Below are positions 145-12,862 of a DNA stretch of 64,000 nucleotides, one piece after another. How positions within the stretch are numbered: the first letter of the stretch is position 1; each line of letters starts with the position of its first letter. Under the pieces are notes generated by a model. It was not told where the DNA came from. It saw only the letters and a list, made by a program, of their open reading frames with translations, and did not search any database. The stretch covers positions 24,552 to 88,551 of the forward strand of contig JAJRWB010000046.1 of NCBI GenBank assembly GCA_024276995.1, in the 5' to 3' direction. The position numbers and the translations under genes were made by a program. Source of the stretch: Candidatus Eiseniibacteriota bacterium. GTDB lineage: Bacteria; Orphanbacterota; Orphanbacteria; Orphanbacterales; Orphanbacteraceae.

Positions 145-657
145 ATGTTCGCGTTTCGCCCCGGCGTATTCCTGATTGCATTGGTCCCCGCCGTTCTGTG
201 GCCGGGCTGTTCGCGGAAAGCCGACCAGCCGGTGGCGTTCAACCACAAGCTGCACATCTATAACGGTGTCGCGTGCACCGTGTGCCACGTGGGCGCCGAA
301 ACCGGCCTCAGGGCCGGCCTGCCCGGTGTGGAAACGTGCAGGAGATGCCACGAAGATCTTCTCTACGAATCGGACGAGGAGGCCAAGATCCGCCTCGCCG
401 TCGAATTGGATCGCGATCTCGACTGGATTCCTCTCACGAGACTCGCTCCGTTCGTTCTCTTCTCTCACAATCGTCATGTGACGCTCGGCAAGTTCAACTG
501 CGTGACGTGTCACGGCGATGTGGCCTCGTGGTCGGTGCCTCCGCGCGTTCCGGAGAGGAACTTCCACGGCAGGCCGGGCATGGCCGACTGTATCGGTTGT
601 CATCAGGAGAGCCACAGCCGCTACGCGGGCAGCGACTGTCTTTTTTGTCATCATTAA
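145..657 (+). CDS. Pentaheme c-type cytochrome subunit (QrcA/ActA-like)
   Basis: A 170-residue exported protein with five CxxCH heme-binding motifs at residues 44-48, 65-69, 119-123, 149-153 and 165-169. Extra histidines (such as H34, H37, H108 and H111) could give bis-His ligation as in class III cytochromes. The N-terminus is hydrophobic and ends in a Pro-Gly-Cys at residues 20-22, so it may be a lipoprotein, although the lipobox is imperfect. A pentaheme cytochrome just upstream of molybdopterin-family, four-cluster ferredoxin and NrfD genes is the arrangement of alternative complex III (ActA) and resembles the Qrc complex (QrcA). By that analogy it would pass electrons between the periplasmic side of the complex and soluble carriers. 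It is the first complete gene of a tightly packed eight-gene run; no promoter is evident in the 64 bases upstream. Confidence 0.85.
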   Translation: MFAFRPGVFLIALVPAVLWPGCSRKADQPVAFNHKLHIYNGVACTVCHVGAETGLRAGLPGVETCRRCHEDLLYESDEEAKIRLAVELDRDLDWIPLTRLAPFVLFSHNRHVTLGKFNCVTCHGDVASWSVPPRVPERNFHGRPGMADCIGCHQESHSRYAGSDCLFCHH

Positions 658-667
658 GGGGGATCGG

Positions 668-3016
668 ATGACCCTGACGCGCCGGAAGTTTCTAGCCTGC
701 CTCTCCGCGGCGGGGATGGGAACTCTCGCGACCGGCTGGATCGGCGGCCGGCTCCAGGCGATGGTGGACGAGAAGATCTTCCCTATGCCTTCCGGTGTCG
801 GGTTGGAGAGGTGGCTCGGCACATCGTGCGGTCTTTGCGCGGCGGGCTGCGGGCAGAGAATCCGCTTCGTCGACGGCCTGCCCGTGGGCATTGCCGGAAA
901 CCCCCTCGATCCGGCGAGCGGGGGCGGGCTGTGTCCCGCCGGCTTCTCCGGCCTGTGGGACGCGCTCTCGGAAGACCGGATCCGCTCTCCCCTGGCGCGC
1001 CGCGGCGAGAGGGGGAGCGGCCGGTGGGAGGCGATCGGCTGGGACCGGGCGCTCGACACGCTCTCGGCGAGACTCGCCGCCTTGCGGGCCTCGCGGACTC
1101 CGGAACGGTTCGTCGTTCTCGAGGGGGGGAGCGATCCGATTCGAAGCCGTTGGATCGAACATCTTCTCGCTTCCTTCGGTTCCCCCAACCACTGCATGAC
1201 GGAAAACCCGATGGGACTGTGGGACGCTGCGGTCGGTCGAGTTCTCGGAACGGGCGGTCTCTCCCTCGCTCCCGATCTCGACCGCGCGGGCGCGATCCTT
1301 TCTTTTGGATATGAACTTTTCGAAACGGACGCCAACCCGGTCTGGCAGAGCGCCGTGTGGGGAAGATTGAGGGATCCCGAAAAGGAGAGCGCCCCGCCGT
1401 TCGTCTATGCCGGTCCGCGCCTTTCCCCGACGGGATACAAGGCGGATCTCTTCCTGGCGTGTCGTCCCGGCACCGAAGGGGCGGTCGCCCTCGGCCTGGC
1501 ATACGCGCTTTTCCAGGAAAGCCTCGTGGACGACGGGAATCTCGGGTCGTTTACCTCCGAAGATATTTCGGGCCTTCGTCTCTGGTTGAGAAAGAAGTTT
1601 CATCCCGAGGCGGTGGAACGGATCACCGGTGTTGCGCCGAAACTCCTCTTCCGTGTTGCACGGTCGATGAGCCGGAACCGGGGAATCGCCCTCGTCGGCT
1701 CATCTCCCCTCGCCGGGCCGAACGGTTACGGAACCGCTCTCGCCGTGGCGACACTCAACGTGCTTCTCGGCGCCTTCGGGCGGGAGGGAGGGTGGGTCGC
1801 CCCGCCCCGCCTTCCGGTGGAAATGCCGTCCCGTCCGCTACCAGACGAGATCGCCCGCGCGGGCCTCGACAGGGGAAGACTCGACCGCGCCGGGAGCGGC
1901 GGCATCGACGTGAAGCAAGCACCCGGCCGCTTCTGGGAGCAACTCGCGTCGGGAGGTCCCTACGCGGTCGATACGATGCTGATCACCGGAACGAATCTTC
2001 TCCGGGAGCTTCCCGATCCGGGGCGGATCGCGAAAGTCCTGAGCAGCATTCCCTTCGTGGCGGTCACGGCGAGCCGGATGAACGAAACGGCGGAGCAGGC
2101 CGACCTCATCCTGCCGGAGGCGACGTACCTCGAATCGTGGGGGTTGGTGATCTCCCGCAGCGCCCTTCCCTTCTCCCGGGTCGGCCTTCGCCAGCCCGCC
2201 TTCGGGCCGCTATACGACTCGATGCAATTCGAGGATATCTGGTTCGAACTCGCCCGGCGATCGGGTGCTTTCGAGCCGGGCGACATCCCGCGGAACATGG
2301 AATCGTGGGTGCGTGCCGCCGCCGCCGACCTCGCGGGAGCGGAACGGGGAATCGTGCCGAACAGCGTCGGCGACGGCGATCTGGCGGCGTACCTCGAGGC
2401 GGGCGGTTGGAAGGCGACCGATCCCGCGGAATCGTCCGGATCTTTCTGGAAACGGCTTCGCCGTTCCGCGGTTTGGACCGCCATGCCGGCGGGGCGTCCT
2501 TCTCCTGGAGAGCTGTTCCGCGCCGGGCGCGCCTCCCTGACCGGCGGCGACGGGAAGAAGGAGATGGAAAAACTTGCGGGAGAAGAGGTCGCCGAGAAGG
2601 GAGAGAACGGCGACGAGGTCGCCCTCCTCTTGACCGACGCGACCACCCTGTGGGGGGGAAGAACTTCTGGGACTCCGCTCATGCTCGAGATGGCGGCATT
2701 CCACCAGAGCAAAGGGTGGGAGACGGTGTGCGAGATCAACCCGGCCACCGCGGAATCTCTTGGTGTCGCCGACGGGGACGGCGGCGTTCTCTCGAATCGG
2801 AAGGGAACGATTCACGTGCGAATCGTAACCACTCAGAAAGTGCCCCCCGGCGTTGCCGCGGTGCTCAGGGGGCTCTCCGGGACGTGGCCGAAGGGACTCG
2901 CCGCGGGCCGCAGGGGAAACCCGCTGGAACTGTTCGGGTCCCGCGAGAACATGATGACGGGAAGCTGGATTCTCACGGCGCGCGCCCGCTTGACGCGCGA
3001 TGACGGAACCGCATAG
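668..3016 (+). CDS. Tat-exported molybdopterin oxidoreductase-family subunit (QrcB/ActB1-like)
   Basis: A 782-residue member of the molybdopterin-dinucleotide oxidoreductase family. The N-terminus has a twin-arginine motif (TRRKFL, residues 4-9), so export should be by the Tat system. Cysteines 54, 57, 61 and 89 fit the CxxCxxxC...C ligand set of a [4Fe-4S] cluster near the N-terminus. A C-terminal dinucleotide-binding-like domain is present. QrcB and ActB of related complexes have lost the molybdenum cofactor, and I could not identify a convincing Mo-ligand residue here, so catalytic activity is uncertain. The ATG at 668 is preferred over upstream starts in the same frame because AAGGGGG lies just before it and the Tat motif follows at once. 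The gene sits 10 bases after the pentaheme gene and 8 before the ferredoxin subunit. Confidence 0.85.
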   Translation: MTLTRRKFLACLSAAGMGTLATGWIGGRLQAMVDEKIFPMPSGVGLERWLGTSCGLCAAGCGQRIRFVDGLPVGIAGNPLDPASGGGLCPAGFSGLWDALSEDRIRSPLARRGERGSGRWEAIGWDRALDTLSARLAALRASRTPERFVVLEGGSDPIRSRWIEHLLASFGSPNHCMTENPMGLWDAAVGRVLGTGGLSLAPDLDRAGAILSFGYELFETDANPVWQSAVWGRLRDPEKESAPPFVYAGPRLSPTGYKADLFLACRPGTEGAVALGLAYALFQESLVDDGNLGSFTSEDISGLRLWLRKKFHPEAVERITGVAPKLLFRVARSMSRNRGIALVGSSPLAGPNGYGTALAVATLNVLLGAFGREGGWVAPPRLPVEMPSRPLPDEIARAGLDRGRLDRAGSGGIDVKQAPGRFWEQLASGGPYAVDTMLITGTNLLRELPDPGRIAKVLSSIPFVAVTASRMNETAEQADLILPEATYLESWGLVISRSALPFSRVGLRQPAFGPLYDSMQFEDIWFELARRSGAFEPGDIPRNMESWVRAAAADLAGAERGIVPNSVGDGDLAAYLEAGGWKATDPAESSGSFWKRLRRSAVWTAMPAGRPSPGELFRAGRASLTGGDGKKEMEKLAGEEVAEKGENGDEVALLLTDATTLWGGRTSGTPLMLEMAAFHQSKGWETVCEINPATAESLGVADGDGGVLSNRKGTIHVRIVTTQKVPPGVAAVLRGLSGTWPKGLAAGRRGNPLELFGSRENMMTGSWILTARARLTRDDGTA

Positions 3017-3024
3017 GAGCGCCC

Positions 3025-3717
3025 ATGCCGATCTGGGGAATGGTGATCGACCTCGACAGGTGCACCGGATGTGGCGGCTGCATGGCCGCCTGCAAGGTGG
3101 AGAACAACGTGCAGGTGGTGCCCCCCGGAGAGGCTCTCAAGGGCCGCGGCATGCACTGGCTCACCATCCTCTCGCGCACCGAGGGGGAGTACCCCGACGT
3201 GGAGGCGGTGCTCCAACCCGACCTTTGCATGATGTGCGACGACGCCCCCTGCACGAAAGTCTGTCCGGTCCACGCCACGTACAGGGGGGCGTACGGCCTC
3301 GTGGCGCAGATCTATCCGCGCTGCATCGGATGCCGGTACTGCATGGCCGCCTGCCCCTACACGGTGAAGTTCTTCAACTGGACGGCGGGAGAGGAAGGCG
3401 TGAATCTCTCCTCATCGCTCAACCCGGACGTGTCGGTCCGCCCGAAGGGCGTGGTTGAGAAGTGTACATTCTGCTACCACAGGCTGCAGAAGGCGAAGGA
3501 GAGAGTCCGCGCCGAACAAAGGGAGATCGCCGGCGGGGACTACGTTCCCGCGTGCGTGGAAATGTGCCCCGCGAAGGCGATGACTTTCGGAGACTTGGAC
3601 GACGGCGAATCCCCCGTGAGCCGACTTGCTGCGAGCCGGCGCGCCTCGCAGCTGCTCGAGCACCTGGGCACCGAACCGAAGGTCTACTACCTGAGCAAGC
3701 GGGATCGAAATGTTTAA
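3025..3717 (+). CDS. Four-cluster ferredoxin subunit (QrcC/ActB2/PsrB-like)
   Basis: A 230-residue iron-sulfur electron-transfer subunit of the DmsB/PsrB family. The cysteine sets are C13/16/19/23, C68/71/76/80, C100/103/106/110 and C147/150/177/181, enough for four cubane clusters. It should wire the molybdopterin-family subunit to the NrfD-type membrane subunit. It has no signal peptide of its own. In related complexes this subunit is exported together with its Tat-tagged partner, which probably applies here. The start is preceded by GGAG and the end overlaps the NrfD gene by 8 bases. In canonical ActB the molybdopterin-like and ferredoxin parts are one protein; here they are separate, as in Qrc and Psr. 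Confidence 0.9.
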   Translation: MPIWGMVIDLDRCTGCGGCMAACKVENNVQVVPPGEALKGRGMHWLTILSRTEGEYPDVEAVLQPDLCMMCDDAPCTKVCPVHATYRGAYGLVAQIYPRCIGCRYCMAACPYTVKFFNWTAGEEGVNLSSSLNPDVSVRPKGVVEKCTFCYHRLQKAKERVRAEQREIAGGDYVPACVEMCPAKAMTFGDLDDGESPVSRLAASRRASQLLEHLGTEPKVYYLSKRDRNV

Positions 3718-5050
3718 GCCCGATCCATTCAAAGACGATACGCTCTTCGAGCCGATCGAAAAGACCGGGAGGGCGTTCTGGCTGATTTTCGGCGTCTCGT
3801 TCGCCGTGTTCGTCGTCGGTCTCGGTTACTACGTGCAGCAGCTCAGAAACGGCCTGGGCGTGACCGGCATGATGCAACCGGTGACGTGGGGCTTCTATAT
3901 CATCAACTTCGTCTTCTTCATCGGCATCAGCCATGCCGGCACGCTGATCTCGGCGATTCTCCGCCTCACCCAGGCGGAGTGGCGGCGGCCGATCACCCGC
4001 ATGGCCGAGGTGATCACCGCCATCGTCCTCGCCATCGGCGGGCTCCACCCGATCATCGATCTCGGACGGCCCGATCGCGTGCTGAACGTATTCCGCGCGG
4101 GCAGGCTCCAGTCTCCCCTCTTGTGGGACGTCACGTGCATCACAGCCTACTTCGCCGCGAGCACGGTCTATCTCTTCCTCCCGCTCATTCCCGACATCGC
4201 GCTCCTGAGGGATCGGAAGAAGAAGTTCCATTGGCTCTACTCGTTCCTGTCGTGGGGCTGGAAGGGAACGCCCGCCCAGTGGAAGGTGCTGAACCGGGCG
4301 ATCAACATCATGATGATCGCCGTGATTCCGATCGCCGTTTCCGTTCACACCGTGATCTCCTACATCTTCGCCATGACGCTGCAGCCGGGGTGGCACAGTA
4401 CTATATTCGGCCCGTATTTCGTGGTGGGGGCGATCTTCTCCGGTATCGCGGCGCTCTTCATCGTGATGATCGCCTTTCGAAAGGCGTTCCACCTGGAAGG
4501 ATACCTGAAGGAGATCCACTTCCAGCAACTCTCGAAGCTCCTCCTCGCCATGTCGGTGCTTTGGTTCTACTTCACCTTCTGCGAGTACCTCACCGGGACG
4601 TACGGCGGGGAACCGCGGGAGATGACCACCATCATGTACAAATTCAGCGGCCCGTACGCGCCGTTCTTCTGGACCATGGTGATCTTCAACTTCGTGATCC
4701 CCATGGTCTTCCTTTCGAACCGGAAACTGCGGAAGGTTCCGGGAATCCTGATCGCCTCGATCGCGGTGGTGATCGGCATGTGGCTCGAACGGCTCATCAT
4801 CGTGGTGCCCACCCTCGAGAACCCCGCCCTTCCGGTGATGCGCTCGATCTACATCCCCTCGATGACGGAGATCGCCCTTCTCGCCGCGGCGGTGGCGGTG
4901 TTCGTCATGGGATTCCTCGGGTTTTCGAAACTCTTTCCGCTCATTTCGGTATGGGAGTGCCAGGAGGGGCGCGCATTGTCGGTGAGCGAGACGTCGGAGA
5001 GGATCGAAACGTATCTTCCCGACGCGGAGGCGCAACATGTCCGCGACTGA
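3710..5050 (+). CDS. NrfD/PsrC-family integral membrane subunit (QrcD/ActC-like)
   Basis: A 446-residue, strongly hydrophobic protein with about ten predicted transmembrane helices, typical of the NrfD/PsrC/ActC family, which binds the quinone or quinol. Characteristic stretches are GFYIINFVFFIGISHAG near residues 63-79 and HPIIDLGRPDR near residues 104-114. It would be the membrane anchor and quinone site of the complex formed with the three preceding genes. It overlaps the ferredoxin gene by 8 bases and the next small membrane gene by 14, so translation is probably coupled. Only one NrfD-type gene is present; alternative complex III normally has two (ActC and ActF). Confidence 0.88.
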   Translation: MFKPDPFKDDTLFEPIEKTGRAFWLIFGVSFAVFVVGLGYYVQQLRNGLGVTGMMQPVTWGFYIINFVFFIGISHAGTLISAILRLTQAEWRRPITRMAEVITAIVLAIGGLHPIIDLGRPDRVLNVFRAGRLQSPLLWDVTCITAYFAASTVYLFLPLIPDIALLRDRKKKFHWLYSFLSWGWKGTPAQWKVLNRAINIMMIAVIPIAVSVHTVISYIFAMTLQPGWHSTIFGPYFVVGAIFSGIAALFIVMIAFRKAFHLEGYLKEIHFQQLSKLLLAMSVLWFYFTFCEYLTGTYGGEPREMTTIMYKFSGPYAPFFWTMVIFNFVIPMVFLSNRKLRKVPGILIASIAVVIGMWLERLIIVVPTLENPALPVMRSIYIPSMTEIALLAAAVAVFVMGFLGFSKLFPLISVWECQEGRALSVSETSERIETYLPDAEAQHVRD

Positions 5051-5339
5051 CCGGCACTCCGACGCCTATCTCAAGCTGATCTTCCTTGCGCAGATCGCGT
5101 CGATCACCATGATGTGGATGTTTCTCGTCAGCGTCGTCCTGTGGATCCTGCACCTCGTGAACGTGGCGAGAGAGCTTCACGACGCGCTTACGGCATCGAT
5201 CGGGCTCAGCCTGATCGTCCTGCCGGCCTACTCCCTGGTGGCGGCCATACTGACGTTCGTCTTCTTCGGCCTGCGAAGAGGGGCGCGCAGCGAGAACGAC
5301 GAGCCGGGCGAGAGCGAGGGGGAGCGCCATGATTCGTAA
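5037..5339 (+). CDS. Small two-helix membrane protein of the respiratory operon
   Basis: A 100-residue protein with two hydrophobic segments at roughly residues 13-35 and 52-78 and a charged, acidic C-terminus. GGAGG lies just before the ATG. It overlaps the NrfD gene by 14 bases and the tetraheme cytochrome gene by 11. I do not recognise the family. Its position and two-helix topology suggest a small accessory subunit of the membrane complex, or an anchor for the cytochromes that follow, but that rests on context alone. Confidence 0.7.
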   Translation: MSATDRHSDAYLKLIFLAQIASITMMWMFLVSVVLWILHLVNVARELHDALTASIGLSLIVLPAYSLVAAILTFVFFGLRRGARSENDEPGESEGERHDS

Positions 5340-6498
5340 TCGGCGCGCATCGTCGATCGCCCTGTTCGGACTCGTTCTCTTTGCCTTGTGGGGGGCGCCC
5401 GTCGCCGCGCAGCACGTCTCCGGCGAGGATTCGACACTCGATAGGGTCTGGCGCGGCCGGGAGCTGGTGTCGAAGAAGGGTTGCCTCGAATGCCACGGGT
5501 GGCTCGGCGGGGGCGACAAGGTGGCGCCCGACCTGGTCGCCCTCGGCCGGGGCCGGCGGCTCGAACAGGTGTTCGCCGCCCTCTGGAATCACGTGCCCCA
5601 GATGGCGGCCCACCTCCGCGAGGGGAAACGCCTTCCGTCACTCACGCCGGACGACCTGAGCGATCTGTTCTCCTTTTTTCTGGCCATGGATTATGTCGGC
5701 GAGGCGGGGGACGCGTCCCGGGGCGAGGAGCTGCTCGCCGATCGCGGTTGTCTTCATTGTCACGAAAAGGGCATCGATCCGGGCGGCATCGGTCCCCCTC
5801 TCGTCGATATCGCCTCCACCGGTTCTCCGGTCGCCCTCCTCGTGCGGCTCTTCAAGGCGTATCCGGTGATGTCTTCCGAACTCCGTTCCATGGGAATGAC
5901 GTGGCCGCAATGGAGCGGCCGCGACATGGCCGACCTGACCGCCGCGCTCAGCGGTTTTCTCCCGGCGGGCCGAGCCCCCCACCTGCTCGAACCGGGCCGT
6001 CCGGACGACGGGAGACGGCAGTTCGATCGTCTCGGATGCGTGTCGTGCCACGGCGATGCCGGCGGGAAGAAACCGTGGGCCACCCGGAGCGCGGCGGAAA
6101 ACGCAGCGGCCCTTCTGAATCATCTTCCTAAAGTCCGCGAAGGCGCCGCCGCGAAGGGGATCGACCGTGTGGGGGAGACCGATATGGTCGACCTGCTCGC
6201 GTTTCTCACGTGGGACGGCGCCACGCTCGAGGGAGGGGACGCGACCCGCGGATGGGAGATCTTCAGCGGGAGGCGCTGCGTGTCGTGTCACCGGCCTGCG
6301 GAAGCGGGGGGGATTTCGAAACCGTACGCCGAGTTGGCGCGGTTCGCGAATCCGTACGACGCCGCCGCGGCGATGATCTCCCACGGTGAGAACATGATCC
6401 TCGCCACCCGGCTCCGGGATGTCGCCTGGCCGCGCCTTACCGAACAGGAAGCTCTCGATCTTCTCGCTTTCCTCGCACCGAAGGAGGGGAAACGATGA
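5329..6498 (+). CDS. Tetraheme cytochrome c built of four class I-like domains
   Basis: A 389-residue secreted protein with an N-terminal signal peptide ending near VAAQ (residues 25-28). Its four CxxCH motifs at C52-H56, C141-H145, C237-H241 and C317-H321 are spaced about 80-96 residues apart, so the protein is probably a string of four monoheme cytochrome c domains. Methionine-containing stretches that could supply a sixth ligand follow the first, second and fourth motifs; the third domain has no obvious one. It overlaps its neighbours by 11 and 4 bases. It is likely a periplasmic electron wire for the Qrc/ACIII-like complex. The electron acceptor is not evident from sequence. Confidence 0.85.
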   Translation: MIRNRRASSIALFGLVLFALWGAPVAAQHVSGEDSTLDRVWRGRELVSKKGCLECHGWLGGGDKVAPDLVALGRGRRLEQVFAALWNHVPQMAAHLREGKRLPSLTPDDLSDLFSFFLAMDYVGEAGDASRGEELLADRGCLHCHEKGIDPGGIGPPLVDIASTGSPVALLVRLFKAYPVMSSELRSMGMTWPQWSGRDMADLTAALSGFLPAGRAPHLLEPGRPDDGRRQFDRLGCVSCHGDAGGKKPWATRSAAENAAALLNHLPKVREGAAAKGIDRVGETDMVDLLAFLTWDGATLEGGDATRGWEIFSGRRCVSCHRPAEAGGISKPYAELARFANPYDAAAAMISHGENMILATRLRDVAWPRLTEQEALDLLAFLAPKEGKR

Positions 6499-8450
6499 AT
6501 CGCGGCGCCGGGCGAATCACTGTCGGTGTGACCGGAGCGCTGCTTGCGGGTGGGGCGATGCTCTTTCCCGGCGTCGCCGCCCACGCCGCCGACGGGGCGG
6601 CGGAGAAAGCGAACGGTGGCCCTTTCGCCGTTCCGGAAATGGTGGTGAACGACACGCTCGGCATAAGGGACCGGTGCACATCGTGCCACACCGGGATCAG
6701 GGATCCCGGCATGGCCGGCCGGGGGCAGCCTGCTGCCGCCCATCCCGGCGGATTCCTGGTCGATCACAGGGTGGAGCGCTTCGGTTGCACCCCCTGTCAC
6801 GGCGGAGACGGTACCGCCACAAGCGCCGATCGCGCCCACGGTGCGGTGGGCGGTGGAAAACCGATGGCCGTCGGGCGCCGTGTCGAGATGGCGTGCGCCC
6901 GCTGCCACGCGGATGCGCTCCACCTCGATGGAGCGCCCTTTCTCAGCCTGGGCCGGCGATCGATCGACCGGTACGGCTGTGTCGGATGTCACCGGATCGG
7001 CGGATTCGCCTGGCGGGAAGGCAAGGCGCCCGACCTGAACGGCTTCGCCTCTCGATCGAACGCCGAGTGGGTGTACACATGGCTCGGCGATCCGAAAGTG
7101 TACGCCGAAAACGCGAGGATGCCGCGCTACGAAATCGATGACAAGGCACGCGACGCCCTCACGGGATACCTCATGACATTCACCGAAGAGTCGCCCTTCG
7201 ATACCACCGCCTTTCCGGCGGAGGGGGACTTTGATAACGGGAAGCGTCTCTTCCGCCTTTCGTTCTGCATATCGTGCCATACGGTCGACGGGAAGGGCGC
7301 CGACGAGGCGATCGACCTCGGGCGGGTGGGAAACAAGTGGAATCGCGCCTCCCTTCTGCGGATGATCTCCGACACCCGTTCCCTGGCGCCCGATTCGCCG
7401 ATGCCCCAGTACACCTTCACGAACGCACAGGTCGCCGACCTGGCGGCCTACATGATGGATGAACTGTACGACCCGTATTTCGCCGATCCGGAAGAGGATT
7501 CCACGCTGGCGAATCTCGGGAACTCGTGGCCCTCGGAGGAGGAGAGAGTCGACGCCGGCAGGAGATTGTTTAAGGAATTGCGTTGCGCCAACTGTCACTC
7601 CTTCCCGGGAGGCGAGGAGTGGATCCGCGTCGGCCCCGATCTGAGGGAGATGACCGGTGATCTGCTCGTGAGCCTCGGCCGGAACGAGGGGATCGATTTT
7701 CCCTGGAGTCTCGAGGAGTACGTCTGGAGGAAGGTGAACGATCCCCGGGGGATGGAACCGGCGGAGTACCGTTACAAGATGCCCTCGTACGATCTGGATG
7801 AGAGGACCGCTCTGGGTATCTCCATGGCGGTACTCGCCCAGATGATCGACGATGAACCGACCGCGGCGTTTCTCGTCCACGATCGCGAAATGGATCCCCT
7901 CGAACTGGAAGGGGAATTCGGAGAACTGGTGTCGCGCTATCGGTGCACGTCGTGCCACTCCTTTTCGGGGGTGGGGCACAACACGACGTACGATTTGGGC
8001 ATGGAAGGGAGCCGCGTTCAGCGGAAGTGGCTAAGGGATTACCTCCAGATGCCGTACACGATACGGCCGATCCTCACCATTCGAATGCCGTTCTTCAACA
8101 TCACCGACGAGCAGGCGGAAGTGCTCGCAGACGGGATCATGAGAACCCGAAGAGACGTGCTCGTCGAGGGGGAAGGCGACTTCCGGCAGAGTCCGGCGCG
8201 CATCGCCGCCGGGAAGCGGCTCTTCGACGAGAGCGGCTGTCTCGCGTGCCACCAGATGGGGTCGAAGGGGGGATACGTGGGGCCGAGTTTCACGGCGGGA
8301 AGCCCGGTGGGCAGAAAACTCACCCCCGGGTGGATCGTGCGCTGGCTCGATGATCCGGCCGCGATCAAGCCGGAAGTGCCGGAGCCGCGCTACGGGTTCA
8401 CGCTGGAGCAGAGAAGGAGCATCGCCTCGTACCTGATGTCGATCCGGTAA
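6495..8450 (+). CDS. Octaheme cytochrome c, compact tetraheme head plus four cytochrome c domains
   Basis: A 651-residue secreted protein with a signal peptide ending near residue 32 (AHAAD). It has eight CxxCH motifs: H65, H102, H138 and H166 crowd into about 105 residues like a small multiheme module, while H262, H368, H488 and H586 are spaced about 100 residues apart like separate class I cytochrome domains. MPRYE, MPQYT, YKMPSYD and MPFFN stretches following these sites resemble axial-methionine regions. The start forms an ATGA overlap with the tetraheme gene, and GGAGGGGA precedes it. A role as a long periplasmic electron relay of the complex encoded upstream is an inference. I do not know a named family with this exact layout. 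Confidence 0.85.
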   Translation: MNRGAGRITVGVTGALLAGGAMLFPGVAAHAADGAAEKANGGPFAVPEMVVNDTLGIRDRCTSCHTGIRDPGMAGRGQPAAAHPGGFLVDHRVERFGCTPCHGGDGTATSADRAHGAVGGGKPMAVGRRVEMACARCHADALHLDGAPFLSLGRRSIDRYGCVGCHRIGGFAWREGKAPDLNGFASRSNAEWVYTWLGDPKVYAENARMPRYEIDDKARDALTGYLMTFTEESPFDTTAFPAEGDFDNGKRLFRLSFCISCHTVDGKGADEAIDLGRVGNKWNRASLLRMISDTRSLAPDSPMPQYTFTNAQVADLAAYMMDELYDPYFADPEEDSTLANLGNSWPSEEERVDAGRRLFKELRCANCHSFPGGEEWIRVGPDLREMTGDLLVSLGRNEGIDFPWSLEEYVWRKVNDPRGMEPAEYRYKMPSYDLDERTALGISMAVLAQMIDDEPTAAFLVHDREMDPLELEGEFGELVSRYRCTSCHSFSGVGHNTTYDLGMEGSRVQRKWLRDYLQMPYTIRPILTIRMPFFNITDEQAEVLADGIMRTRRDVLVEGEGDFRQSPARIAAGKRLFDESGCLACHQMGSKGGYVGPSFTAGSPVGRKLTPGWIVRWLDDPAAIKPEVPEPRYGFTLEQRRSIASYLMSIR

Positions 8451-8491
8451 CGAGGTTTTATTGCGGAGTGAATCTCCGGGAGAGCCGCACG

Positions 8492-8956
8492 ATGAAGGGA
8501 AAGATCACGGGCATGCTGATCGCGGCGGGAGTGATCCTCGCCGCCGGGGCGGCCGCCGATTCCAACGGGGCCGCCGATTCCTCCGCCGCGGGGGAACTCC
8601 CTCCCTTCGCGTCGCTCGCCGGCCGGCCTTCGGGAGGTTCAAGCGACCCGGCGCTCGATTCGGGGGCGAGGGTGTACGGCATCTACTGCGCCCGCTGCCA
8701 CGGAAACGAGGGAGGAGGTGACGGCTTCAACGCCTATAATCTCTCGTCGAACTTCGGCGTCTCTCCCGTCGCGTTCTCCGATTCCCTCACGTGGCGCGAC
8801 CTCGATGTGGAGGGTGCGCGGGCGGCGATCAAGCGGGGGGGGACGGCGGTCGGGAAATCGCGTTACATGCCGCCGTGGGAATACACCCTCTCTCCTCTCG
8901 AAGTGGAGGATGTCCTTCTCTACATCCGGTCGATGCCTTCCCTCTTCCCCGAGTAG
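8492..8956 (+). CDS. Monoheme cytochrome c (ActE-like)
   Basis: A 154-residue secreted class I cytochrome c with signal peptide, one CxxCH at C66-H70 and a RYMPPW stretch near residue 122 that fits the distal methionine. ActE of alternative complex III is likewise a small monoheme cytochrome near the end of its operon. I prefer the ATG at 8492 because a typical signal peptide follows directly; a GTG at 8468 in the same frame would add eight residues. It is the last gene of the run and is followed by a strong hairpin. It probably shuttles electrons to or from the complex. Confidence 0.85.
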   Translation: MKGKITGMLIAAGVILAAGAAADSNGAADSSAAGELPPFASLAGRPSGGSSDPALDSGARVYGIYCARCHGNEGGGDGFNAYNLSSNFGVSPVAFSDSLTWRDLDVEGARAAIKRGGTAVGKSRYMPPWEYTLSPLEVEDVLLYIRSMPSLFPE

Positions 8957-8994
8957 GAGCGACCGCTCTCCGGAAAAAGGGGAGGGTGTCGGAA

Positions 8995-9022
8995 AGCCCC
9001 GGCGGGAGTTCCCGCCGGGGCT
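8995..9022. terminator. Strong hairpin between convergent genes
   Basis: A perfect 12-bp inverted repeat (8995-9006 with 9011-9022) around a four-base loop lies between the converging cytochrome operon and the barrel gene. There is no clear T-run after it on the + strand. Reading on the - strand, a pyrimidine-rich tract with a T-run follows within about 25 bases. It probably ends transcription from one or both sides. Confidence 0.6.
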
Positions 9023-9053
9023 GTTCGATTCGATCGACGATCGGCTCGCGATC

Positions 9054-10388
9054 CTAGAACGCGAAGTCGACCTGTAAAGTTCCCTTCCCCTGATCCTGGC
9101 TGGCGTCGTCGAGGGGAATCTTGTATTCCGCAGAGCACTTCACGTTCGCCCGGACCATGACGATCACGGCGGGGATGAGAGTCGTCTGCGGATCGGCATC
9201 GGAGTCGGTATCGATGTCGGTGTACTCGTACCGGGCGTAGCCGATGAGCCACGGGTAAAGGACACACCGGCCCGTGGCGAACGCGGCGAACGAATCGCGG
9301 GTATTCGGCACCCACTCTTCCACCAGGCTGACGCCTGTCTTCGACGCGACCTTCGTCGTGACGTTCGAGCCGTATTCCGACGACATCGCCATTCCGCCGG
9401 CGGTGACGCTGAACCGGTTGTACCAAAGATCGACGTCGCCGCCGAAGACGTTGAACTCGTCATCATGGCCCGATCCATCGGTCGCGACGCCGCGGTAGGC
9501 GAAACCGCCGAAACGGATCGAGTTGTCCTCGTAGAACGCGGACGAAGTACTCGCCTGGCCCTCCGTGCCGCCCGCTTCCCCCAGGCCGCCGAACTTGTAC
9601 GTCGCGCGGGCGTAGACGTCCTTGTCCTTGTTCAGGTCGAAATTCTCCTCGTCGTTCTGGCCGTTGCCGATCCCGACGTTGTAGGTGAGGCCCCCCTTGC
9701 CGCCGGAGCCGTTCAGTGCGCCCCAAAGTGCCATGCCGGCTCCCGCGCCGCTCCGTCCCCGCCACGTGCCCGACTGATTCCTCAGGTTGTCGACGTTGTA
9801 GTGTTCCTTCGTCAGTCTGTGATGTTCCGGCGTCCATTCGGGGCCGACGGAGCCGATCTTCAGATGCGCCGCCGGCGAGAAGTCGTACTGAATCGCGAAA
9901 TCGTAGCCGACTTCCGCTTCATGCTCGAGTTCGATCTCTCCGACATAGGAGAGCTTGTCGTCGAATGTCCCTCCGAAGAGAAGCTCCAGTTCGTGGGGAA
10001 CCTCGAACGTGGTCATTCCATCGATTTCCTGATAGTGGAATCGCCCCAGAGCGCGGAACGATACCGGGGGAACACCGGCCATGTCGGTCGGCCAGATCGC
10101 GTCGGGCCAGACCCGCTTGTAGGCTTCGGAACCGAGGCTGACAGGCGTATCCTTCGTCATCTCGGGATCCTGACCTTCCGGATAACGGAAGCCGTTGTTA
10201 TTGAACGCCTTGCCGAAGCCGTTCAGCCGCGGAAACGCGTAATGGCATGTGGAGCAGCTGGTCTTGTACTTCCGGGCGAAAGCGGGGATCGCGTTCGCCT
10301 GCTCCGCGGACAAGGCGAGCAGAAACGATACCGCAAACATCGCAATCACGAGTGTCAGAAGATTTTTCGAGCCGGGCGAATTACTCAC
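9054..10388 (-). CDS. Outer-membrane beta-barrel protein with N-terminal monoheme motif
   Basis: A 444-residue secreted protein. A signal peptide ends near residue 33 (ANA), and the mature N-terminus carries a single heme motif, C45-x2-C48-H49. The rest has the alternating aromatic/polar pattern and terminal aromatic residue (DFAF) of an outer-membrane barrel, with several Gly/Asp-rich turns. The GTG start at 10388 is chosen because AGGGAG lies 6-7 bases upstream and the signal peptide begins there; the longer frame upstream is not needed. It converges with the 18-heme operon and has a similarly heme-tagged counterpart at 20894-22045. It may be a heme-bearing porin, but the substrate and any electron transfer across the outer membrane are speculative. 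Confidence 0.75.
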   Translation of the reverse strand: MSNSPGSKNLLTLVIAMFAVSFLLALSAEQANAIPAFARKYKTSCSTCHYAFPRLNGFGKAFNNNGFRYPEGQDPEMTKDTPVSLGSEAYKRVWPDAIWPTDMAGVPPVSFRALGRFHYQEIDGMTTFEVPHELELLFGGTFDDKLSYVGEIELEHEAEVGYDFAIQYDFSPAAHLKIGSVGPEWTPEHHRLTKEHYNVDNLRNQSGTWRGRSGAGAGMALWGALNGSGGKGGLTYNVGIGNGQNDEENFDLNKDKDVYARATYKFGGLGEAGGTEGQASTSSAFYEDNSIRFGGFAYRGVATDGSGHDDEFNVFGGDVDLWYNRFSVTAGGMAMSSEYGSNVTTKVASKTGVSLVEEWVPNTRDSFAAFATGRCVLYPWLIGYARYEYTDIDTDSDADPQTTLIPAVIVMVRANVKCSAEYKIPLDDASQDQGKGTLQVDFAF

Positions 10389-10750
10389 TGCGCACTCCCT
10401 TCCGGATCGCCGGGGTGCCGGTACGATCCATGGCATTGCTGTGCAGACTCGGAGATGACCGGTCTTCCTCCCTGATAGCGGTTCCGATGAACATTTCGTT
10501 TGATGGGGGGAAGCCGCGGGGATCCTCGGCGGCCCGGTGGTCCGCGATTCCATAAAGCCATGCCGGGGCTCCTCTCCACCGATGGAGACGGCAATCGATA
10601 CACCTTCTCTCACCGGCAACACATTGAGGACTAGCAGGATGAAAACCGGTTGTCAAGGATTGCAACCCATTAAATTCTATTGATCTGCGACGTCTTCGCC
10701 GGGATGATCCGGACCGGCTTCGATCCGGGGAACGATCGGGAAGGTAAAAG
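10389..10750. other. Intergenic region and probable leader of the heme-barrel gene
   Basis: No convincing gene is visible on either strand. The frame of the barrel gene stays open to 10622, but that extension has no secretion signal or coding character and I treat it as untranslated leader. A promoter-like pair lies at 10628-10656, which would make a leader of about 230 nt. Confidence 0.4.
10628..10656 (-). promoter_or_regulatory. Candidate promoter of the heme-barrel gene
   Basis: On the - strand, a perfect TTGACA (10651-10656) is followed after 17 bases by TAGTCC (10628-10633), itself preceded by TGC as in an extended -10. The -35 is excellent and the -10 weak. Confidence 0.4.
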
Positions 10751-10777
10751 GCGGCGGGAGCAGATCGCTCCCGCCGC
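10751..10777 (-). terminator. Rho-independent-type terminator of the starch-binding gene
   Basis: An 11-bp perfect inverted repeat (10751-10761 with 10767-10777) with a five-base loop lies 33 bases past the stop of the upstream gene on this strand. On the - strand it is followed by CTTTTACC. Confidence 0.65.
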
Positions 10778-10810
10778 GTCGATCGATCGGCTGTATGAAA
10801 CGACGGCCGG

Positions 10811-12862
10811 TTACCTCACGAGAACCATCTTTCTCGTTACCGATTTCGCGTCCGACCGGAGCCGGTAGAAATAGACTCCGCTCGAGACCGCGCGCCCGGC
10901 GTCGTTCGTGCCGTCCCAGATCACGGCGCGGGACCCGGTGTAGGCCCCGCCGTCCAAGGTTCCCTTCACGAGGGTTCTGATCCGGCGTCCGGCGGCGTCG
11001 AACACGGCGAGGTCGACCGTCGTCCTCGACGGAAGTTCGAACTCGATCGCGGTGCGCGGGTTGAACGGGTTCGGCGCGTTCTGGAGAAGCCGCATCGCAG
11101 CAGGCGTAACCGGCGAGGCGTCGTCGATGCCGACGAACTGGGTGCAGCGGTCCCAGTACGCCTTGTCGAGAACGATCGGCACGGCCGACGAGAAGAGGGT
11201 GTCGTTCAAAAAGACATTGCGGTTCCCCTGGCCGAAGCACTCGAAGTTGAAGAGCGTGTCGCCCACCCCTTTCCAGAGGTACTTGAAGTCGAAGTTCTTG
11301 AGCGATCCCGTGGGGAACGTGAGCCGCGTGGTGAAGACTCCGTCCCCGGCGACCGAATCGGGAAGGACGCCGTCGTCGGCGAGCAGGTTCACGGGCGGGT
11401 TATTCCAGTTGAGCGGCGCGATGCTCCCGTCGATCCCGATCGTGTCGATGAGCGGGTCCCACTGGTAGTTCGAGACGTTCTCGGCGAAGAAGATCACGTC
11501 GATCGGCAGCGTCGTGAAATTGATCGGCGCCTGGTCGTTCCACCAGATGGCGAGCGTGTCGTACGGAGCGTGCATGTCGAGCTGATAGATGTGATTCCCC
11601 GAACTCTCCCACTCGGTGCACTGGTGGGTAAACTTGTACTCGATGTTCACCGTGTCGGAAATGTGGGTCACCACGCCGCAGTTCACGGCGGTGATCAGCG
11701 TCGCCTCGTACGTCGAATCGCCGTCGGGATCGGCCATCAGGTCGTCGCACGTCGGGTTCCAGGTAAGAGGGGCGAGGCTCCCCTCGATGGCGAAGGTGTC
11801 GGCCACGGGGGCGAGGGAATGGGTCTGGAGGTGGATGCTCATCTGCCCGCGTACGAGAAGCTCGGTCAGGTAGAACGAAGCGACGTTCGTGACGCCGTCG
11901 TTGACGATCACATTCCCCGCGAGATCCTTAACGTTGATGGCGGTCAGATCGATGCACGACCCGAGAGCGGGGACGGCGTCCAATGTGAGTTCCACCGAGG
12001 AAGCGCCCGACATCACGGCGGAAACGACGTTCACACCGGTGACGGTGTAGTTCGTCGCCGTTTCGGCGCTCAGCGTGTCGACCGGTTCGCTGAAACTGCA
12101 GATGAGCCGATCGTATGCGTCATATGGAAAGCTGTAACCCGCGACCGTGGGAGGCGTCGTGTCACCGCCCGTCTGCTCCGCCACGAGGGTGGAGTTCGAG
12201 AGCACGGCGGGAGTGCTCCAGTCGGCGGCGTTCCAGTCGTCGGGGAGATCGTTCGACGTATCTTGCGCGTTGTCGGTTCCCCCGCCGCCGGTGGTCCAGA
12301 CTTCGCAATAGATCGAAGCGGGGTTGCCGAGACGCGACTTCGCGATTTTCCACTCGATACCGGAAACGGCGCCCGCCGACAGTGCCGCCCCGTCGGCCCC
12401 GCCGCTCTGCGACCACGTGCTCGTTCCCTGATCCCACGCCCAGAACTGCGTGTCTTCCGGTCCGTACGGTTGGCTGTCGGTCCAGCTGTTCAGGCTGAAC
12501 TCCGGTTTGTGCGGGTCGGATACGGTGACGTTGCGTCCCCACGCGTCGGATGTCGCGCCGTTCAAGTCGTTCGACGTATCGATGTAGAGCATATACTTGC
12601 CCCACTGCGTCGCCGACAAGTTGTCGTTGACCGTGACGAGGAAGTACCAATATGTGTTGTCGTTGCAGACATACAAGTCGATGAGGTCGATATTGTTGTT
12701 CGAAGCCCAATGGTCGCCCGCCGGGTCGCTCGCCTCGGCGACGCCGTAGACTCCGTCTACGACACCGTCCATGGTGGGCGTGCCGAATCCCTCGGCAAGC
12801 GCCGTTCCCGCAAGTAGGGCGAGCCCGAGCAGTGCCGTGATCAGCGTAGCCGTTCTCTTCAT
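10811..12862 (-). CDS. Secreted multidomain carbohydrate-binding-like protein with PNPFNP surface domain
   Basis: A 683-residue exported protein with a clear signal peptide (cleavage near ALA, residues 21-23). In order: a DOMON/glucodextranase-C-like beta domain (about 25-210), an SbsA-type Ig-like domain (about 235-340), two related modules of the form F/I-x-G-S-x-A-P-L-x-W that resemble starch-binding or pullulanase accessory modules (about 345-590), and a C-terminal FlgD-like domain with NAPNPFNP (about 600-683). Such terminal domains are typical of surface or secreted proteins in FCB-related phyla. AGGAGG just before the ATG at 12862 fixes the start. It is divergent from a maltose-type ABC importer, so it probably binds extracellular alpha-glucan. 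No catalytic domain was recognised. Confidence 0.75.
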   Translation of the reverse strand: MKRTATLITALLGLALLAGTALAEGFGTPTMDGVVDGVYGVAEASDPAGDHWASNNNIDLIDLYVCNDNTYWYFLVTVNDNLSATQWGKYMLYIDTSNDLNGATSDAWGRNVTVSDPHKPEFSLNSWTDSQPYGPEDTQFWAWDQGTSTWSQSGGADGAALSAGAVSGIEWKIAKSRLGNPASIYCEVWTTGGGGTDNAQDTSNDLPDDWNAADWSTPAVLSNSTLVAEQTGGDTTPPTVAGYSFPYDAYDRLICSFSEPVDTLSAETATNYTVTGVNVVSAVMSGASSVELTLDAVPALGSCIDLTAINVKDLAGNVIVNDGVTNVASFYLTELLVRGQMSIHLQTHSLAPVADTFAIEGSLAPLTWNPTCDDLMADPDGDSTYEATLITAVNCGVVTHISDTVNIEYKFTHQCTEWESSGNHIYQLDMHAPYDTLAIWWNDQAPINFTTLPIDVIFFAENVSNYQWDPLIDTIGIDGSIAPLNWNNPPVNLLADDGVLPDSVAGDGVFTTRLTFPTGSLKNFDFKYLWKGVGDTLFNFECFGQGNRNVFLNDTLFSSAVPIVLDKAYWDRCTQFVGIDDASPVTPAAMRLLQNAPNPFNPRTAIEFELPSRTTVDLAVFDAAGRRIRTLVKGTLDGGAYTGSRAVIWDGTNDAGRAVSSGVYFYRLRSDAKSVTRKMVLVR

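Follow-up and report, generated by a model that had tools for sequence, protein, structure and literature searches.

Does the cytochrome-rich operon at 145-8956 of the 64,000-nucleotide stretch of Candidatus Eiseniibacteriota contig JAJRWB010000046.1 analysed here (hereafter, the window) encode a known respiratory complex, and do its many hemes belong to one assembly? The core of the operon resembles both alternative complex III (ACIII) and Qrc, which are regarded as two distinct solutions to one problem. On balance, gene content, clade membership, residues and conserved neighbourhood support the view that its first six genes (pentaheme cytochrome A, molybdopterin-oxidoreductase-like or MopB-like protein B, iron-sulfur (FeS) subunit F, NrfD-type membrane subunit C, small protein S and tetraheme cytochrome T) represent a third lineage related to ACIII and Qrc, which we name the T-type complex. 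We lean towards reading A-B-F-C-S-T as a periplasm-facing quinone:multiheme-cytochrome c oxidoreductase. The T-type lineage is widespread, barely described so far, and lies between two known respiratory complexes.

The operon has eight genes, all plus-strand (A-B-F-C-S-T-O-M), and the gaps between successive genes (10, 8, -8, -14, -11, -4 and 41 bases, with overlaps at four of the seven junctions) fit one transcription unit. The operon encodes 18 CxxCH sites, five in A, four in T, eight in the octaheme cytochrome O and one in the monoheme cytochrome M. This number is far above chance: shuffled operon proteins contain a mean of 0.07 CxxCH and a maximum of 2, and the window contains 20 copies of the degenerate DNA motif where 1.1 are expected. 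Open frames, starts and strand all agree with an earlier note on this DNA, which described an unbroken operon with 5+4+8+1 sites. Its statement that ActF is absent and ActB split is borne out as well, as B and F are separate genes and the operon contains neither ActF (a second NrfD) nor ActD (PF11821). Two genes went unmentioned there, namely S, between the NrfD and tetraheme genes, and P, a convergent gene directly downstream.

Phylogeny of the NrfD subunit places the core outside the known ACIII and Qrc clades. In the NrfD tree, all NrfD proteins from T-carrying operons and six relatives form one clade (96% in the Shimodaira-Hasegawa-like approximate likelihood ratio test, SH-aLRT), with a support of 91/80 in a careful tree without long branches. 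The ActC sequences, 6f0k, 6btm and 6lod among them, group in a separate clade (100%) without the window, and QrcD falls outside the T-type clade on a very long branch. In the FeS tree, ACIII and ACIII-like sequences split from everything else at 100/100 and T-type sequences form a grade, and in the MopB tree rooted on QrcB, ACIII is nested within T-type. Because the window's B sits on a long, poorly supported branch, the MopB tree carries little weight for the window itself. These topologies, whose roots are uncertain and in which QrcD is long-branched, are consistent with an intermediate position of T-type between Qrc and ACIII; the intermediate form suggested earlier agrees with the MopB and FeS trees and with the mixture of residues described below. 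The window combines every feature by which we define T-type, i.e., membership of the NrfD clade, split B and F, a 16-Cys F and a tetraheme T.

Solved structures were used for comparison of A, B and C, and curated family models with cut-offs for assignment to Qrc. A matches ActA of 8k9e (5e-19), C matches ActC of 6f0k (1e-73), and B matches ArrA and PsrA. Among the curated models, Qrc ranks first for A, B and F, with scores between roughly one half and two thirds of the cut-offs (bits/cut-off: QrcA 89.9/180, QrcB 203/440, QrcC 281/400), and C scores higher with DsrP than with QrcD (42/570), both far below cut-off. The earlier view of the core as a Qrc/ACIII relative is upheld. Like canonical ACIII of R. 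marinus (6f0k) and F. johnsoniae (6btm), the window has a pentaheme A, a MopB-like B without a Mo ligand, a four-cluster module and an ActC-like NrfD, whereas split B and F, the lack of ActD and ActF, and a tetraheme T in place of the monoheme ActE set it apart. With Qrc (QrcABCD) of sulfate reducers it shares the four-gene core with B and C (QrcB and QrcC) as separate genes, but Qrc loci contain no tetraheme T. As a family assignment, canonical ACIII is rejected on the NrfD tree, residues and gene content, and Qrc on the curated models and the proton-path residues.

Channel and quinone-site residues in C were numbered by R. marinus ActC (residue list from PMC8076601). C keeps 18 of the 19 proton half-channel residues of ActC (13/13 on the N-side and 5/6 on the P-side), and the gate residue Arg395 is kept as R361. 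The quinone site resembles that of Qrc more than that of ActC. Specifically, the position of His139 is occupied by Asp in 28/28 T-operon sequences (Asp117 in the window) and also in 5/5 QrcD, that of Asp253 by Ile or Val in 28/28 (Ile in the window), and the loop between two conserved quinone-site residues spans 18 residues in 27/28 (22 in L122; L numbers are our locus handles), as short as in QrcD, against 25-26 in ActC and 25 in the canonical ACIII compared. Acidobacterial Qrc sequences likewise have the quinone-site Asp, the short loop and the full Cys set. Acidobacterial ACIII-like sequences (L144, L146, L139, L141 and L142) show partial states at the quinone-site residues, as expected for stepwise change. 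The proton-path residues D70, Y110 and Y150 of QrcD correspond to F67, L107 and Y147 in C, so that one of three is kept, and E142 is replaced by W. D70 and Y110 are essential in QrcD (PMC13059093), and their replacement argues for ACIII-type coupling.

A second predicted switch lies in the iron-sulfur subunit. At Cys103 of F (CIGC-RY-C motif), 33/33 T-type and 4/4 Qrc sequences have Cys, whereas 20/20 readable ACIII or ACIII-like sequences have Thr (4/4 readable ACIII and 16/16 split ACIII-like). FeS1 of ACIII is a [3Fe-4S] cluster (PMC5928083); as Cys103 is kept where ACIII has Thr, the proximal cluster of T-type F is predicted to be [4Fe-4S]. Qrc has been reported with a [3Fe-4S] cluster although all 16 Cys are present in the acidobacterial QrcC sequences compared, so the Cys count alone is insufficient to assign cluster type. 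B has a TRRKFL N terminus of the twin-arginine translocation (Tat) type and keeps the N-terminal CxxCx3Cx27C motif. The Mo-ligand Cys of PsrA and ArrA is absent at the aligned position in B and in 32/32 compared relatives, which rules out a catalytic molybdoenzyme. Judged by this missing ligand, and with the N-terminal four-Cys motif kept, B probably lacks the cofactor, as does the MopB domain of ACIII.

Relatives show which genes travel with the core. At 66-72% identity, the window NrfD is matched in 3/395 Bacteroidota/Chlorobiota genomes, and at E <= 1e-85 in 79/396 Acidobacteriota genomes. No T-type NrfD was found in the six other genomes of the window's small phylum, which have at most the ActC type, and the plasmid collection holds relatives below 60% identity only, at most about 40% among the matches listed. 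We compared 29 other loci of the NrfD clade, mostly from Acidobacteriota, with 16 control loci bearing the next-nearest NrfD proteins. The controls are ACIII-like operons with a split B and no ActF nearby, and several of them have ActD (PF11821 confirmed for one) or a monoheme ActE. The tetraheme T is present in 27/29 clade loci and in 0/16 controls (p=2e-10, not corrected for kinship). The dominant order in the fetched T-type neighbourhoods is A-B-F-C-T, T being about 385-445 aa long, and longer where the open frame was extended. Of the tetraheme-octaheme pair singled out by the earlier note, T is conserved with the core and O is not. Related ACIII-like operons of Acidobacteriota (L143-L151 and L139-L142) also have separate B and F, no ActF nearby and a C about 50% identical to that of the window, but several have ActD or monoheme ActE in place of T, and Thr stands at the cluster position.

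The core with a tetraheme cytochrome thus recurs in Acidobacteriota and Bacteroidota/Chlorobiota, and a locus in MBNT15, termed 'cluster 4', combines ActABCD-like genes with a four-heme ActE-like protein for which a role in Fe(III) reduction was proposed (PMC9386147). The uniqueness of the composition suggested earlier is therefore not supported. Compared by description, 'cluster 4' likely belongs to the same clade as T-type; no octaheme or Cyc2-like neighbour is mentioned there. In the literature searched, which left most subscription journals outside, we found no description of the T-type clade, its residue signature or its Acidobacteriota spread, and none linking ACIII with Qrc and acidobacterial extracellular transfer, or with tetraheme, NrfD and iron reduction.

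Table 1. Genes of the operon and its convergent neighbour, with positions in the window.
Gene	Product	Position	Strand	Supporting features
A	Pentaheme cytochrome c, ActA/QrcA-like, 170 aa	145..657	+	5 CxxCH; ActA of 8k9e; QrcA model
B	Molybdopterin-oxidoreductase-like (MopB-like), 782 aa	668..3016	+	PF00384; QrcB model
F	Iron-sulfur subunit, 230 aa, 16 Cys, four [4Fe-4S] sites predicted	3025..3717	+	QrcC model; Cys103
C	NrfD/ActC-like quinone-reactive membrane subunit, 446 aa	3710..5050	+	PF03916; ActC of 6f0k; trees; residues
S	Protein of 100 aa, two hydrophobic segments	5037..5339	+	Not ActD by Pfam; homologues in 6 related loci
T	Tetraheme cytochrome, class I cytochrome c domains, 389 aa	5329..6498	+	PF00034/PF13442; conserved core partner
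O	Octaheme cytochrome, 651 aa	6495..8450	+	Heme positions; full-length homologue in L131
M	Monoheme cytochrome c, cbb3-III/class I type, 154 aa	8492..8956	+	PF13442
P	Cyc2-like fused monoheme cytochrome-porin, mature part	9057..10289	-	Convergent neighbour outside operon; motif IPAFARKYKTSCSTCHYAFPRL

The following picture of the T-type complex, from its assembly and type of quinone to the direction, the pumping of protons and the connection with P, is inferred. Menaquinol (or another quinol) would bind the periplasmic site of C, and electrons would pass to the proximal cluster of F and from there to pentaheme A and tetraheme T, the latter taking the place of ActE. As both proton half-channels of ACIII are kept in C, turnover would probably be electrogenic, and B, having no Mo site, would serve as a structural scaffold. 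The cytochromes O and M, which look like accessories to the conserved core, may act as periplasmic partners carrying electrons onward, in the source genome probably to the Cyc2-like P or to other multiheme proteins. A quinone linked to a long heme wire is in this sense plausible. Quinol oxidation is favoured because the proton machinery is of the ACIII type, and the reverse direction is possible because the quinone site is Qrc-like.

Most likely, the complex serves extracellular or periplasmic electron transfer outside the oxygen chain. Next to the operons of several relatives there are decaheme MtrA/DmsE-family genes (above cut-off) and MtrB/PioB barrels, and in L128 MtrC-, MtrA- and barrel-type genes lie upstream of M-A-B-F-C-T on the same strand; these neighbours point to extracellular electron transfer as a putative role. 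In the source genome, CxxCH is about three times more frequent than in controls (389 forward-pattern matches versus 110-135). P has a signal peptide-like N terminus followed by one CxxCH and a predicted barrel. Cyc2 proteins share the consensus AXPXFAR[Q/K][T/Y] before CXXCH and PXL after it (PMC8406198), and P carries this signature, AXPXFAR[Q/K][T/Y]-CXXCH-PXL, as AIPAFARKYKTSCSTCHYAFPRL (first position read from the ANAIPAFARKY context). The model of its mature part (411 aa) has about 16 strands and matches porin folds at low confidence (mean predicted local distance difference test score, pLDDT, 46.6).

Several points weigh against this assignment. MtrA genes occur near 9/29 clade loci and 1/16 controls (p=0.07, not significant), and any outer-membrane part near 10/29 and 2/16 (p=0.16). 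No match to MtrB/PioB was found in the source genome, and P is convergent to the operon rather than part of it. The Qrc-like quinone site (with Asp for His139, Ile or Val for Asp253 and an 18-residue loop) would also permit quinone reduction, and that the subunits assemble is presumed from their genes.

How far the complex extends along the operon depends on O, which has four N-terminal hemes followed by four class I-type domains (hemes at 61, 98, 134, 162, 258, 364, 484 and 582). Its AlphaFold model, built with 4 sequences, has a mean pLDDT of 41.6 and is unusable. The single 18-heme complex proposed earlier is not supported: of the cytochromes, the pentaheme and the tetraheme alone accompany the core in its relatives, and relatives of O adjoin Rieske/cytochrome b genes. 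It is quite possible, if a little short of probable, that two systems share one operon, an A-B-F-C-S-T complex and, in O, the cytochrome subunit of a Rieske/cytochrome b complex whose b genes no longer lie next to it; the 18 hemes would then be spread over more than one complex. This concerns O only and is compatible with the T-type assignment. In Acidobacteriota L131, the best full-length homologue of O (7e-95, 8 hemes) is encoded after a flavin/FeS protein, Rieske and split cytochrome b genes, shorter homologues lie beside cytochrome b in L119 and L123, and a 406-aa homologue of its N-terminal part comes after Rieske/cytochrome b in L072/L073. On another contig of the source genome (L176:6837-10459, contig C28), tetraheme, Rieske, cytochrome b and 9-heme genes stand in a row, a set homologous to genes beside the T-type operon in L060. 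Rieske/cytochrome b genes are weakly enriched near clade loci (8/29 versus 0/16, p=0.037, uncorrected), and L131 carries A, B, F, C, two T, O, the best homologue of P (6e-28) and Rieske/cytochrome b on one strand within about 17 kb. In the window, however, O overlaps T by 4 bases and no b gene adjoins, so O is at least likely co-expressed with the T-type complex.

The opposite direction, in which periplasmic cytochromes fed by P or other electron-uptake proteins (e.g., from Fe(II)) would reduce quinone as in Qrc, possibly driven by proton motive force through the ActC-type channels, seems unlikely to us. It would account for the 16-Cys F, the loop of 18 residues, and the Asp and the hydrophobic residue found at the positions of His139 and Asp253, respectively, all common to acidobacterial Qrc, and for the Cyc2-like P adjoining the operon. 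However, two of the three QrcD proton-path residues are missing, no subunit reaches a curated Qrc cut-off, and Asp120 is dispensable in Qrc itself (PMC13059093). Additionally, Fe(II) donates electrons to quinone poorly unless energy is supplied.

An ordinary ACIII variant for aerobic respiration via cytochrome c oxidase is very improbable: the best solved relatives of C are ActC proteins and M is similar to class I cytochromes, for example oxidase donors, but neither ActD nor ActF is encoded in the operon, the proximal cluster motif of F contains Cys where ACIII has Thr, no oxidase gene is among the listed neighbours, and the source genome already has a canonical ACIII on another contig (L017, C32:1-16000; A, fused ActB, C, ActD, ActE and ActF), which is more likely its aerobic complex.

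Taking the T-type assignment further, a lineage common among Acidobacteriota in which ACIII channels occur together with a quinone site and cluster of the Qrc type could reveal how one of the two complexes became the other, and which residues set direction and energy coupling in NrfD-type complexes. The Cys/Thr and Asp/His switches are testable single-residue predictions. If tied to extracellular transfer, T-type would be a candidate for the quinone gate in the inner membrane of iron-cycling bacteria from soils and sediments. With more doubt than confidence, we suggest that T-type might be a widespread third proton-coupled quinone gate for outside electron exchange, retuned by a proximal [4Fe-4S] cluster and an Asp-type site for low-potential or reversible work, a living Qrc-ACIII intermediate, with A-B-F-C-T, O and P forming one trans-envelope route in the source organism.

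Other arrangements were seen among the loci surveyed. In seven Bacteroidota loci (L062-L066, L068 and L070), an NrfD about 40% identical is accompanied only by an FeS protein, a monoheme cytochrome and a protein without assignment, with no MopB and no pentaheme cytochrome; the three loci that were examined lack one Cys in the first cluster motif. In L009:6146-15836 and L165 (Elusimicrobia and one Acidobacteriota genome), a T-type-like core is followed by a large NarG-like molybdopterin oxidoreductase gene, for which a nitrate or nitrite link is possible. A regulator-like gene, CRP-type by eye, lies between two operon tetraheme genes in L005:13149-13622 and L008:4433-4906 (Chlorobiota/Bacteroidetes). 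Elsewhere in the source genome, an iron-sulfur/NrfD pair stands beside a 13-CxxCH open frame on the opposite strand (L018:4824-6930 and 7042-11550, contig C47), and L172-L173 (contig C2:66000-98416) hold a multiheme cluster whose open frames have 13, 17 and 10 CxxCH, with many further motifs to about contig position 94000.

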